Part shown: positions 40,624 through 43,424 of the stretch, one piece after another
Layout of the letters: the number at the start of each line of letters is the position of its first letter
Numbering within the stretch: position 1 is the first letter of the stretch
Assembly: GCA_945885475.1 (NCBI GenBank)
Contig: CAMCYR010000024.1
Span: 1 to 47,205 of the forward strand
DNA length: 47,205 nucleotides
Direction of reading: 5' to 3'
Source of the DNA: Chitinophaga pinensis
GTDB taxonomy: Bacteria > Bacteroidota > Bacteroidia > 2-12-FULL-35-15
Notes under the pieces: model-generated
What the model was told of the DNA's origin: nothing
The model's database searches: none
Seen by the model: the letters and a program-made list of their open reading frames with translations, nothing else
Position numbers and translations under genes: made by a program

Positions 40624-41343
40624 ATGACAATAACAGAAAAAGGAATTTTATATCTTATTCCAACCACTCTTGGAGATGCTTCGGAAACAGTTGATGTAAT
40701 TCCTGCTAAAATAAATCAAATCATTAATACAATTGATGAATATATTGTTGAGAATGAGAAAACGGCAAGGCATTATCTTAAAAAGATTGGTATAAAAAAA
40801 CCGTTACAAGAGATCATTCTGCATCCACTAAATCAGCATACAGGTGCGGTTGATGTTTCTAGTTACCTGAAATCGATTTCAATCGGAAAAAACATTGGCG
40901 TTATCTCCGAAGCGGGATGCCCCGGTGTTGCAGATCCCGGATCAGAAGTTGTACGATTAGCACATGCGAACAATATCAAGGTTGTTCCTTTGGTTGGCCC
41001 ATCTTCTATTCTTTTGGCACTAATGGCTTCTGGCTTTAATGGCCAATCATTTACATTTAATGGATATCTTCCTAAGGAAAGAAGTGAACGAATTAAAAAA
41101 ATAAAAGAACTCGAAAAAATTGCTGTTCAAAAAAGTCAGACTCAGTTATTCATTGAAACACCTTATAGGAATATGCACATTTTGGATGACGTGCTTAGCA
41201 GTTGCGAAGGGAAAACGCGTTTGTGTATCGCATGCGACATAACGCTGCCTACAGAATTCATTAAGACAAAAAGTATTGGCGAATGGAAAAAGCAGATTCC
41301 GGATATCGCAAAACGTCCAACAATCTTTCTGATTTATAAATAA
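40624..41343 (+). CDS. rsmI: SAM-dependent methyltransferase, RsmI-like (tetrapyrrole methylase fold)
   Basis: RsmI 2'-O-methylates C1402 in the 16S rRNA decoding centre. The 239 residues carry GILYLIPTTLGD at the start (LYL-P-T-LG form), IVENEKTARHYLKKIG (~41), VISEAGCPGVADPGSEVVR (~102-120; the SAM-binding loop), VVPLVGPSSILLALMASGF (~126) and FNGYLPKERSER (~148). The EAGCP-G-ADPG motif and the GPSS motif fit the RsmI clade. It is about 45 residues shorter than E. coli RsmI, since the C-terminal extension is missing. This short form is common in Bacteroidota, and its exact target is less certain. It lies 7 bp after the phosphatase gene and is followed by the tandem repeat array. Confidence 0.84.
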   Translation: MTITEKGILYLIPTTLGDASETVDVIPAKINQIINTIDEYIVENEKTARHYLKKIGIKKPLQEIILHPLNQHTGAVDVSSYLKSISIGKNIGVISEAGCPGVADPGSEVVRLAHANNIKVVPLVGPSSILLALMASGFNGQSFTFNGYLPKERSERIKKIKELEKIAVQKSQTQLFIETPYRNMHILDDVLSSCEGKTRLCIACDITLPTEFIKTKSIGEWKKQIPDIAKRPTIFLIYK

Positions 41344-41390
41344 TACAAATTACTATTTTAATGCTTTCGCATGTCGGGATGATTTTCCTC

Positions 41391-41800
41391 AAACACTTCT
41401 CGATACGCTCCCTTCGGTCGCACTCGAAGCGACATTTGAGTAAGAGTATTTCGCTAAACGATATCTCAGTTCGAGTATTCTGCTAAACGTCCTGTCAGTT
41501 CGAGTGTTCCGCTGGAACGTATCGAGAACAGTTATAACCACAAACACTTCTCGATACGCTCCCTTCGGTCGCAGTCGAAGCGACATTTGAGTAAGAGTGT
41601 TTCGCTAAACACTAAGTCAGTTCGAGTGTTCTGCTAAACGTCATGTCAGTTCGAGTGTTCCGCAAGAACGTATCGAGAACGCTTATAACCACAAACACTT
41701 CTCGATACGCTCCCTTCGGTCGCAGTCGAAGCGACATTTGAGTAAGAGTCTTTCGCTAAACACGAAGTCAGTTCGAGTGTTCCGCAGGAACGTATCGGGA
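41391..41800. repeat. 151-bp tandem repeat array (2.7 copies)
   Basis: Unit 1 is 41391-41541, unit 2 is 41542-41692 and unit 3 is 41693-41800. Units 1 and 2 are both exactly 151 bp. Unit 3 lacks one 29-bp internal sub-repeat (the GTCAGTTCGAGTGTTC type) and the last 14 bp. Each full unit begins with TTCTCGATACG and ends near CGTATCGAGAA, an 11-bp perfect inverted repeat (41397-41407 with 41518-41528; 41548-41558 with 41669-41679), so each can fold on itself. The inner CGCTCCCTTCGGTCG and TCGAAGCG also form inverted partners. GC content is clearly higher than the surroundings. It lies between the convergent rsmI and GT2 genes. Single copies of similar sequence occur between genes in other Bacteroidota, as I recall. 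Confidence 0.9.
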
Positions 41801-42021
41801 TTAGAGCTTTCGTTATTAAGATACCTGAAGAAAAGATGCATTGAAATATGCGTCTGCTCTTAACGCTTTAAGGAAATATCTTAAATAAAATAAGAACATG
41901 CGCATTATCAAAGTGATCGTTTTAATTTTCGGAAAGCGCAATTAGTGATCGTTAGCCAGTGAGTATAAAAATTCGACTATTAAGTAGGAGTACTAAGCTA
42001 AAACTTTTTAGATAGTTAAAA
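41801..42021. other. Gap between the repeat array and the GT2 gene
   Basis: Low-GC sequence with no gene, terminator or repeat that I can support. Confidence 0.4.
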
Positions 42022-42972
42022 CTAAACTCGCTTTTCAATCTGATATTTATTCCTGTCCGAGGAACTGCGGGATATCAATTCTCCAAGAAAACCAGCCAGA
42101 AACAGCTGTGTACCAATTATCATTGCTACTAAGGCCAAGTAAAATAAGGGTTTGTCGGTCACATCTCTCGTTGGAATAGCATATGCTGATTTGTATACTT
42201 TTTCAGCTATTAAATAAAGGGAAAGTCCGCCTCCAAGTAAAAATGACAAGGTTCCCCAAAAGCCAAAAATATGCATTGGACGTTTTCCGAACTTTGATAC
42301 GAAAGTAATAGACATCAGATCCAAAAATCCGTTGATAAAGCGCTCCAAGCCAAATTTGGTAACACCATATTTACGCTCTCTGTGCTGAACAACCTTCTCT
42401 TCTATCTTGGTAAATCCTGCCCATTTAGCAATAACAGGAATATAACGGTGCATTTCTCCATAGACTTCAATGTTTTTTACAACGTCTTTACTGTATGCTT
42501 TCAGACCACAGTTAAAATCGTGTAAGTTGTTGATTCCGCTGGCTTTACGCGTAGCCCAATTAAATAATTTTGTCGGGATTGTTTTAGAGATCGGATCGTA
42601 TCTTTTTTGTTTCCATCCGGACACCAAGTCGAGTCCGTCAACAGCGATCAATTTGTACAATTCAGGGATTTCGTCAGGTGAATCTTGCAGATCGGCATCC
42701 ATTGTAATGACAACATCTCCCTGAACAGCTTCAAAACCAACGTTCAGAGCTGCCGATTTGCCATAATTCCTGCGGAATTTTATTCCTCTGATATGACTAT
42801 TTTTAGCTGAGAGTTCTTCAATTACCCTCCAGGACTTATCTCGGGAACCATCATCTATTAAAATTACCTCGTAAGAATAGGAAAAAGTATTCATGACTCT
42901 TTCGATCCATTCACACAGTTCGGGTAAAGACTCCTCTTCGTTAAATAAAGGTATTACAACTGAAATATTCAT
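42022..42972 (-). CDS. Family 2 glycosyltransferase with membrane tail (DPM1/GtrB-like)
   Basis: A 316-residue enzyme that probably transfers a sugar from a nucleotide donor to polyprenyl phosphate on the inner face of the cytoplasmic membrane. The GT-A domain has SVVIPLFNEEESLPEL (~4), LIDDGSRDKSW (~39), RRNYGKSAALNVGFE (~67) and the metal-binding TMDADLQDSPDEIPEL (~90). QHRERKYGVTKFGLERF (~195) is the usual motif before the membrane part. Two C-terminal membrane helices (~230-255 and ~268-295) match the GtrB/DPM1 layout. The donor sugar is unknown and no flippase or glycan cluster is adjacent. A perfect -7 box ends 7 bp before the ATG. Confidence 0.9.
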   Translation of the reverse strand: MNISVVIPLFNEEESLPELCEWIERVMNTFSYSYEVILIDDGSRDKSWRVIEELSAKNSHIRGIKFRRNYGKSAALNVGFEAVQGDVVITMDADLQDSPDEIPELYKLIAVDGLDLVSGWKQKRYDPISKTIPTKLFNWATRKASGINNLHDFNCGLKAYSKDVVKNIEVYGEMHRYIPVIAKWAGFTKIEEKVVQHRERKYGVTKFGLERFINGFLDLMSITFVSKFGKRPMHIFGFWGTLSFLLGGGLSLYLIAEKVYKSAYAIPTRDVTDKPLFYLALVAMIIGTQLFLAGFLGELISRSSSDRNKYQIEKRV

Positions 42973-43174: not shown

Positions 43175-43182
43175 TACTTTTG
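43175..43182 (+). promoter_or_regulatory. -7 box for the SRP RNA gene
   Basis: TACTTTTG is a perfect TAnnTTTG match, ending 4 bp before the first paired base of the RNA. Confidence 0.75.
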
Positions 43183-43186
43183 TGTC

Positions 43187-43284
43187 GGGGTAAGTCTCAT
43201 ACAACCAGCTCCCTTCAACCCTCCAGGTGCGGAAGCAAGCAAAGGTACTAGGTTGAGCGGTGTGCTATGAGTAGCTTACCCCTT
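43187..43284 (+). ncRNA. ffs: Signal recognition particle RNA (4.5S, small bacterial type)
   Basis: A ~96-nt RNA gene. The ends pair perfectly: GGGGTAAG (43187-43194) with CTTACCCC (43275-43282). The apical domain contains CAGGTGCGGAAGCAAGCA (43232-43249) with the GGAA tetraloop and the asymmetric-loop sequence AGCA that binds Ffh, followed by AAGGTACTAGG. This is the conserved SRP domain IV pattern. There is no Alu domain, so it is the short form. A -7 box sits just upstream and a T-run (43286-43291) follows the closing stem as terminator. It works with Ffh and FtsY in co-translational membrane targeting. Confidence 0.93.
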
Positions 43285-43424
43285 CTTTTTTGACTTACAA
43301 TATAAAATTTTATACGCTCTCTCGAGTAATAACAGAAGTTCTCTCTTCTTGTTTTCTGTAAAATTAAATCATATAACACCTCTTTAATTTTTTTATCTAC
43401 TTATCAAGACTTTTCCACATTCAA

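Follow-up and report, generated by a model that had tools for sequence, protein, structure and literature searches.

A Bacteroidota-wide, REP-like hairpin repeat with a GTCA tag, in a tandem array between convergent genes

Results

A tandem array of paired hairpins

The window analysed here is a whole stretch of 47,205 nucleotides, contig C24 of a Bacteroidota genome of 3.06 Mb in 84 contigs (G000, hereafter the own genome; G, C and L numbers denote genomes, contigs and loci). It carries a tandem array of three units that lies, as an earlier note on this DNA had stated, between convergent genes, namely a PF00590-like methylase gene upstream (26.2 bits, just below the 27.8 cut-off) and a gene for a Glycos_transf_2 protein downstream (Table 1). 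The borders, drawn by the extent of shared unit sequence, differ slightly from those given before. Named relatives of the neighbouring gene come from MAGs labelled 'Bacteroidetes bacterium'.

Table 1. Positions of the array, its component repeats and the flanking features in the window
Feature	Position	Strand	Remarks
Methylase gene, PF00590-like	40624-41343	+	
Remnant, 3' end of 437-aa glycosyltransferase gene	41348-41385	-	38 bp with 87% identity to the copy in G035; ends at the array
Tandem array	41389-41797		unit 1, 41389-41539; unit 2, 41540-41690; unit 3, 41691-41797
Hairpin monomer 1	41396-41433	-	GTCG tag (41433), N5=C; N'=G closes the hairpin (41396)
29-bp sub-repeat, degenerate (CTCAGTTCGAG...)	41465-41493	+	hairpin 5' half plus linker
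Hairpin monomer 2	41494-41529	+	tag GTCA, N5=G, N'=C
Hairpin monomer 3	41547-41584	-	variant TTCGACTGC
29-bp sub-repeat GTCAGTTCGAGTGTTCTGCTAAACGTCAT	41616-41644	+	absent from unit 3
Hairpin monomer 4	41645-41680	+	tag GTCA, N5=G, N'=C
Hairpin monomer 5	41698-41735	-	variant TTCGACTGC
Hairpin monomer 6	41767-41797	+	tail lost, TATCGGGA replaces TATCGAGAA; right border of the array
Orphan right flank	41798-42021 (~220 bp)		no counterpart in the nearest relative, G031
Glycos_transf_2 protein gene	42022-42972	-	
Small signal recognition particle RNA	43181-43285	+	

Period analysis of the array gave a unit spacing of exactly 151 bp, seen twice. The two exact periods claimed earlier are thus exact in spacing, not in letters, since units 1 and 2 are identical at 138/151 positions. 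Unit 3 does lack one 29-bp sub-repeat and its end (~15 terminal bases, where 14 had been counted), but these are not its only differences, as it matches unit 2 at 104/107 positions besides. Likewise, units 1 and 2 carry the 11-bp inverted ends that had been assigned to every unit, TTCTCGATACG/CGTATCGAGAA, but the right end of unit 3 is shortened to CGTATCGGGAT. The array is indeed richer in GC than its surroundings, at 0.471 against 0.354 for the window, and equally GC-rich 410-bp windows make up 0.1%. The proposed ability of a unit to fold as a large hairpin, in DNA or RNA, is borne out by prediction: single-stranded DNA of one unit (-26.4 kcal/mol, z -3.9) and its plus-strand RNA (-52.1, z -5.5) both beat all 200 shuffles, and for the minus-strand RNA (z -3.4) 2/200 shuffles were equally good.

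Each 151-bp unit consists of two copies of a smaller hairpin that face in opposite directions, tags inward, with the 29-mers in between, and a spacer of ~20 bp separates one unit from the next. The 29-mer is itself composed of the 5' half of the hairpin plus a linker, a make-up that fits slippage between GTCA direct repeats. Stepwise slippage, the origin proposed earlier, is therefore plausible for the 29-bp steps, but it fails as an explanation of the whole. The array is not an isolated slippage product and is best read as a tandemly amplified BIME/REPIN-like pair.

Constant foot, variable tip

The element consists of an unpaired tag, GTCA, followed directly by a hairpin of the form N-TTC-GA-G...C-GA-GAA-N'. 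When the monomers were read side by side, N (the base after GTCA, position N5) and N' (the base after ...GAGAA) were recognised as partners. This pairing was quantified in 177 copies from G000, G001, G002, G031 and other Bacteroidota, taken from stretches that had been fetched for holding repeats; identical contexts were left out, as were copies lying 25 bp or less from the end of a stretch. The foot pair is Watson-Crick in 164/177 copies, as against 74.2 expected by shuffling (reached in 0/10000 shuffles), and in 93/104 distinct sequences; all four pair types occur, and 13/177 copies have a broken pair. The covariation indicates that the hairpin starts exactly after the tag, with N-T-T-C pairing with G-A-A-N'. 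Beyond N-TTC, 5'-GA-3' would face 5'-GA-3' as tandem G.A, followed by a G-C pair. No pairing partner was found for the final A of the tag. The tag reads GTCA in 171/175 copies and GTCG in 4/175, the search pattern having allowed only A or G at that place. Outside the tag and N', the 104 isolated copies show little conservation, save for the T that precedes the tag (T in 100 of 175 copies, C in 29, A in 28 and G in 18).

The tip, by comparison of each variant's own halves with swapped halves, also keeps its pairing as its sequence changes. Twenty distinct variants from the own genome form 4.5 bp on average, as against 2.84 for swapped halves (reached in 0/20000 cases). The values were 5.68 and 3.07 bp (0/10000) for 59 variants chosen by hand for distinct tips from the own genome, the family and the phylum scans, and 4.29 and 2.64 bp, counting Watson-Crick pairs only (0/5000), for 28 distinct long monomers of G014, hand-typed from ~100 of its 273 copies with some one-base variants omitted. 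Certain tip classes, among them the one carried by minus-strand monomers in the window array (GCGACCGAAGGGAGCG), pair poorly by Watson-Crick alone and need tandem G.A. Tandem sheared G.A pairs are known for their stability. Allowing them raised six such tips from 2.17 to 5.17, with 3.33 for swapped halves, and improved 12/28 G014 tips as against 5/28 with the order reversed; these figures are suggestive of tandem G.A in the tips.

Dispersal across genome, family and phylum

BLAST with one unit returned 17 matches in the own genome, so that the dispersed family suspected earlier does have further copies; one complete unit, followed by a partial one, lies at C6:91831-92017 and again at C50:5669-5850. 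At the level of the single hairpin, the short pattern GTCRNTTCGAGYGY, with one mismatch, has 88 own-genome sites versus 6 for the reversed control, and the long form TTCGAG-N8..38-TATCGAGAA has 32 versus 1. The pattern GTCANTTCGAGY-N4..32-TCGAGAA occurs in 30/36 family genomes with 0 control hits, at 0 to 273 copies per genome, the other 6/36 being free of repeats. Over the phylum, the same pattern was found in 52/392 genomes and 24/179 genera, with one control hit across all rows.

Neighbouring copies are arranged in several ways. Within 150 bp, tag-inward neighbours number 5, 9, 9 and 1, tag-outward neighbours 3, 13, 0 and 6, and direct neighbours 18, 1, 0 and 13 in G000, G001, G002 and the other genomes, respectively. 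Some dimers have conserved linkers. One direct pair in G000, with a conserved linker of 36-37 bp, occurs nine times among the neighbour pairs listed, which indicates that composites are copied together. We also note, at many own-genome loci (L057, L059, L061, L063-L067), two short-form monomers in direct orientation joined by the conserved 36-bp linker CGAGATTAATATAAGTAAGAAAAATGCTTGTCGCCA; this pair is a composite that has its own spread.

Copies of one monomer are often set in unrelated flanks. Where two G000 monomers are at least 90% identical, both 20-bp flanks are below 50% identity in 390/574 copy pairs. For same-monomer pairs in G001 and G002, both flanks are unrelated in 13/56 and 33/69, the low G001 figure arising because composites move or duplicate together. 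Inverted pairs that move as a unit, some of them in tandem, are the mark of REPINs and BIMEs, and they are seen here in the window array and in the same 151-bp unit at C6 and C50.

Other arrays came to light as well. At L276 (G000:C20:3247-3764), five hairpins on one strand recur every 120 bp, joined by conserved linkers of 77 bp. In another species, at L315 (G001:C6:8342-8753), two tip types alternate in opposite orientation with a period of ~125 bp, which is the architecture of the window array with other tips. The genome G014 (273 copies) has many tip classes, and its pairs are often heterodimers of two unlike tips.

History of the site

The methylase is present in 30/36 family genomes, own included. 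Of the 29 others, one had no sequence downstream, hence 28 were examined, and none of these contains an exact repeat in the 1.5 kb after the methylase (231 bp only in one genome). In the closest by methylase protein, G031 (93%), the methylase gene stops ~60 bp short of the end of the same downstream glycosyltransferase gene, as against ~680 bp in the window, and the site is free of repeats; the empty site could also reflect a loss in G031.

In G003, G009, G035, G032, G034, G012 and G025, the next gene after the methylase encodes a 437-aa glycosyltransferase. The 38-bp remnant in the window derives from the 3' end of this gene, which was not found whole elsewhere in the own genome (E 1e-60). 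As the remnant stops at the array and has no strong match elsewhere, the array appears to border a deletion or rearrangement joint. Comparison of the right flank of the array with the glycosyltransferase region of G035 gave just 10-13 bp chance matches. The site after the methylase varies among relatives (L249, L251, L268, L269), being occupied by a glycosyltransferase cluster, by other genes or by a direct junction with the downstream glycosyltransferase gene.

A 21-kb stretch of C6 can be aligned with G031 at 88%, and the copies there are common in position, part of them having decayed in G031. Judged in this one syntenic stretch, the family is old, vertically inherited and not visibly active.

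Search for a mobilising enzyme

A single Y1 gene is present in the own genome (G000:C6:41001-41354, minus strand), a RAYT by NF047646 (85.5 bits, cut-off 80). A repeat pair lies 1.1 kb off, with one gene in between, and the pair is also found at the syntenic G031 locus. The RAYT (L048:4368-5140, G000:C6) is itself bordered by palindromes of its own, ACAGATTTTTAACCTGT and CGCAGGTTGAAAACCTGCG, which resemble the borders of those tyrosine transposases that PMC3733652 describes as flanked by TIRs. When 30 Y1 and 30 RAYT loci from the family scans were examined with ~1.5 kb of flank, a full repeat was found only at this gene and its G031 ortholog.

Across the 36 family genomes, copy number is related neither to the number of RAYTs (rho -0.20, p 0.24) nor to that of Y1 genes (rho 0.02). 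Repeats are present in 6/7 family genomes without a RAYT, and a RAYT in 5/6 without repeats (five with several). In G035, which is 99% complete and holds 43 copies, neither a Y1 nor a RAYT was detected. At the level of the phylum, a RAYT (E 1e-10; repeat-bearing genomes absent from the matched rows being counted as without one, and weak relatives perhaps being missed by the first-look scan) is found in 37/52 repeat-bearing and 212/340 other genomes (p 0.28), and none was detected in the single-contig genomes G064 and G130, which hold 42 and 34 copies.

Gene context

Genes were approximated by the longest ORFs, with a minimum length of 80 aa, and not by a gene finder. The fetched own-genome stretches hold 38 repeat clusters; once 5 edge clusters and 2 that lie within ORFs are set aside, the 31 placed fall into 13 convergent, 17 codirectional and 1 divergent gaps, against 17, 83 and 19 among the remaining gaps of the same stretches. 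Convergent enrichment is significant (p 0.0017), and weighting by length gave p 0.0004 for it and p 0.0017 for the scarcity in divergent gaps. Copies in the own genome thus mostly favour gene 3' ends.

Discussion

The GTCA repeats have the anatomy of REPs in general: they are dispersed, in high copy, and form a hairpin with a conserved unpaired tetranucleotide at the 5' foot. The nearest known class is that of the CGTC REPs, compared here by description. As described by Di Nocera et al. (2013, PMC3733652), these carry a short unpaired GTC-containing tag at one hairpin end (CGTC, also TGTC and CCTC), are dispersed, form dimers and clusters, lie where the neighbouring genes are convergent or unidirectional, occur in Bacteroidetes including Gramella forsetii, and are not flanked by transposase genes; the stem of 8-9 bp begins almost always with A-T pairs, the loop is 4-5 long and the tail is CCA. 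Set against this textual description, the repeats share GTC in the tag, the dispersal, the dimers and clusters, the gene context and, on the strength of our Y1 and RAYT scans, having no associated transposase. They are set apart by the tag GTCA, by a first pair of any Watson-Crick type, by the fixed GA/GA foot, by a widely varying tip length and by having no fixed tail. It is possible that the G. forsetii set belongs to the same family.

With the GTAG REPs of TnpA-REP/RAYT systems (REPtrons), the repeats share a tetranucleotide at the 5' foot, stem mismatches, inverted pairs, tandem arrays of pairs and a position at gene 3' ends. However, the tag is GTCA and not GT[AG]G, and the repeats are neither tracked nor flanked by a RAYT, so that membership in this class was rejected on both tag and RAYT link. 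As a further difference, the foot is conserved over 24 genera. According to PMC6006769, transposases of Bacteroidetes subclass 2.6 / group 5 are flanked by atypical, non-GTAG REPs with copies elsewhere in the genome. By description, not sequence, these resemble the GTCA repeats in phylum, in the non-GTAG tag and in the further genomic copies, and differ in flanking their own transposase, which the repeats do not at the loci examined; the two could be related. The exact motif strings led to no on-point paper in the open-access text searched, only to unrelated matches. We therefore regard the GTCA repeats as a Bacteroidota REP variant whose anatomy is known and whose combination of tag and foot differs from the classes compared.

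The account that we consider probable is that of a Bacteroidota-wide REP-like hairpin that is mobilised in trans through its foot and has been amplified in tandem at the window. By analogy with TnpA-REP, a trans-acting protein would recognise the hairpin as single-stranded DNA, reading tag and foot and not the tip, and would then copy or join the element elsewhere, as is thought for TnpA-REP with GTAG REPs. On single-stranded REPs, TnpA-REP proteins recognise the tag and features of the stem and cleave close by, the tag guiding the cut site in one studied case (PMC8266576). By the same analogy, a fixed foot with a free tip is most simply explained by a protein that reads GTCA and the foot. The array may then have grown by recombination between 151-bp units and by slippage between the 29-bp GTCA...GTCA direct repeats, and may represent the joint of the deletion or rearrangement that removed the glycosyltransferase gene. 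Mobilisation in trans draws on the dispersed copies, the covariation of foot and tip, the unrelated flanks, the dimers, the empty G031 site and the remnant at the array. Against it stand the failure of our scans to find a mobilising enzyme and the lack of relation between copy and RAYT numbers in the 36 family genomes, as well as the copies shared with or decayed in G031, the flanks in G001, the broken feet, the poorly pairing tips and the possible loss in G031.

More tentatively, the repeats may form a separate Bacteroidota GTCA superfamily, in which the conserved foot would be the sole recognised part and the tip a replaceable paired stem, often with tandem G.A; the enzyme would be an undescribed one other than a Y1 RAYT, and several tip lineages would multiply side by side and combine into pairs with unlike arms. 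The constant foot with its covarying first pair indicates which part a recognising protein would have to read, and the free tip which part it would ignore. Copy-rich genomes without a detected RAYT, such as G064 and G130, narrow the search for the enzyme through comparison of gene content. How REPs without a transposase neighbour spread is posed as an open question for the CGTC class in PMC3733652, and the present family offers a testable handle on it in another phylum; annotators would gain a name for a common, unlabelled repeat of Bacteroidota.

That the element is REP-like and copied in trans by an undescribed enzyme had been one suggestion of the earlier note, and the dispersed, tagged and covarying hairpins agree with it, and no Y1 or RAYT gene tracks them that would point to the enzyme, if one exists. 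A rival reading is an ordinary REPtron, in which the own genome's RAYT would be the cognate transposase; the NF047646 match and the repeat pair 1.1 kb away, likewise in G031, speak for this. However, a gene intervenes, the RAYT has flanking palindromes of its own, full repeats near the scanned Y1 or RAYT loci are confined to the own genome and G031, and neither the family genomes nor the phylum show co-occurrence. We rejected this gene as the cognate enzyme on these grounds and regard a REPtron as decidedly improbable. The enzyme probably differs from this one RAYT; possibly a past enzyme has since been lost, a divergent one was missed by the models, or one of a different class is involved. 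Local replication slippage without any wider family, to which the nested 151/29-bp structure might point, has next to no probability, as it is refuted by the dispersed copies in the own genome and over the phylum, though slippage may account for growth of the array.

The main rival to mobilisation in trans places the role of the repeats at RNA 3' ends: selection would keep the copies for the hairpins that they form at mRNA 3' ends, as Rho-type ends or exonuclease blocks, or as bidirectional termination blocks, with mobility a minor matter. We consider this unlikely, although the preference for gene 3' ends, the strong plus-strand fold of a unit and the pairing kept in foot and tip as sequence changes all argue for it. 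On the other side, avoidance of divergent gaps is equally expected from tolerated insertion, copies have decayed in G031, six family genomes do without any, and the conserved unpaired GTCA tag would be superfluous for a plain terminator. The array also holds no T tract or canonical intrinsic terminator; the sole terminator-like site in 41200-42200 (0.8 expected) falls outside it, which leaves a canonical form of the terminator block envisaged before unsupported. Less probable still, and very unlikely in our view, is a binding site for a nucleoid or topology protein spread by gene conversion. Gyrase and IHF have been proposed as binding proteins of E. coli BIMEs, and the location between convergent genes and the paired arrangement would suit such a role, but a double-stranded site leaves the covariation of the tips unaccounted for.

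Conserved hairpins are also what Rfam families have in common with the repeats, yet Rfam gave no match to the array at E 1, nor to 8 repeat-bearing loci at E 0.1; this counts against the RNA-level reading, and any Rfam family was rejected as the identity of the repeats. Elsewhere in the window, without overlapping the array, the same database identifies the small signal recognition particle RNA (RF04183, 84 bits).
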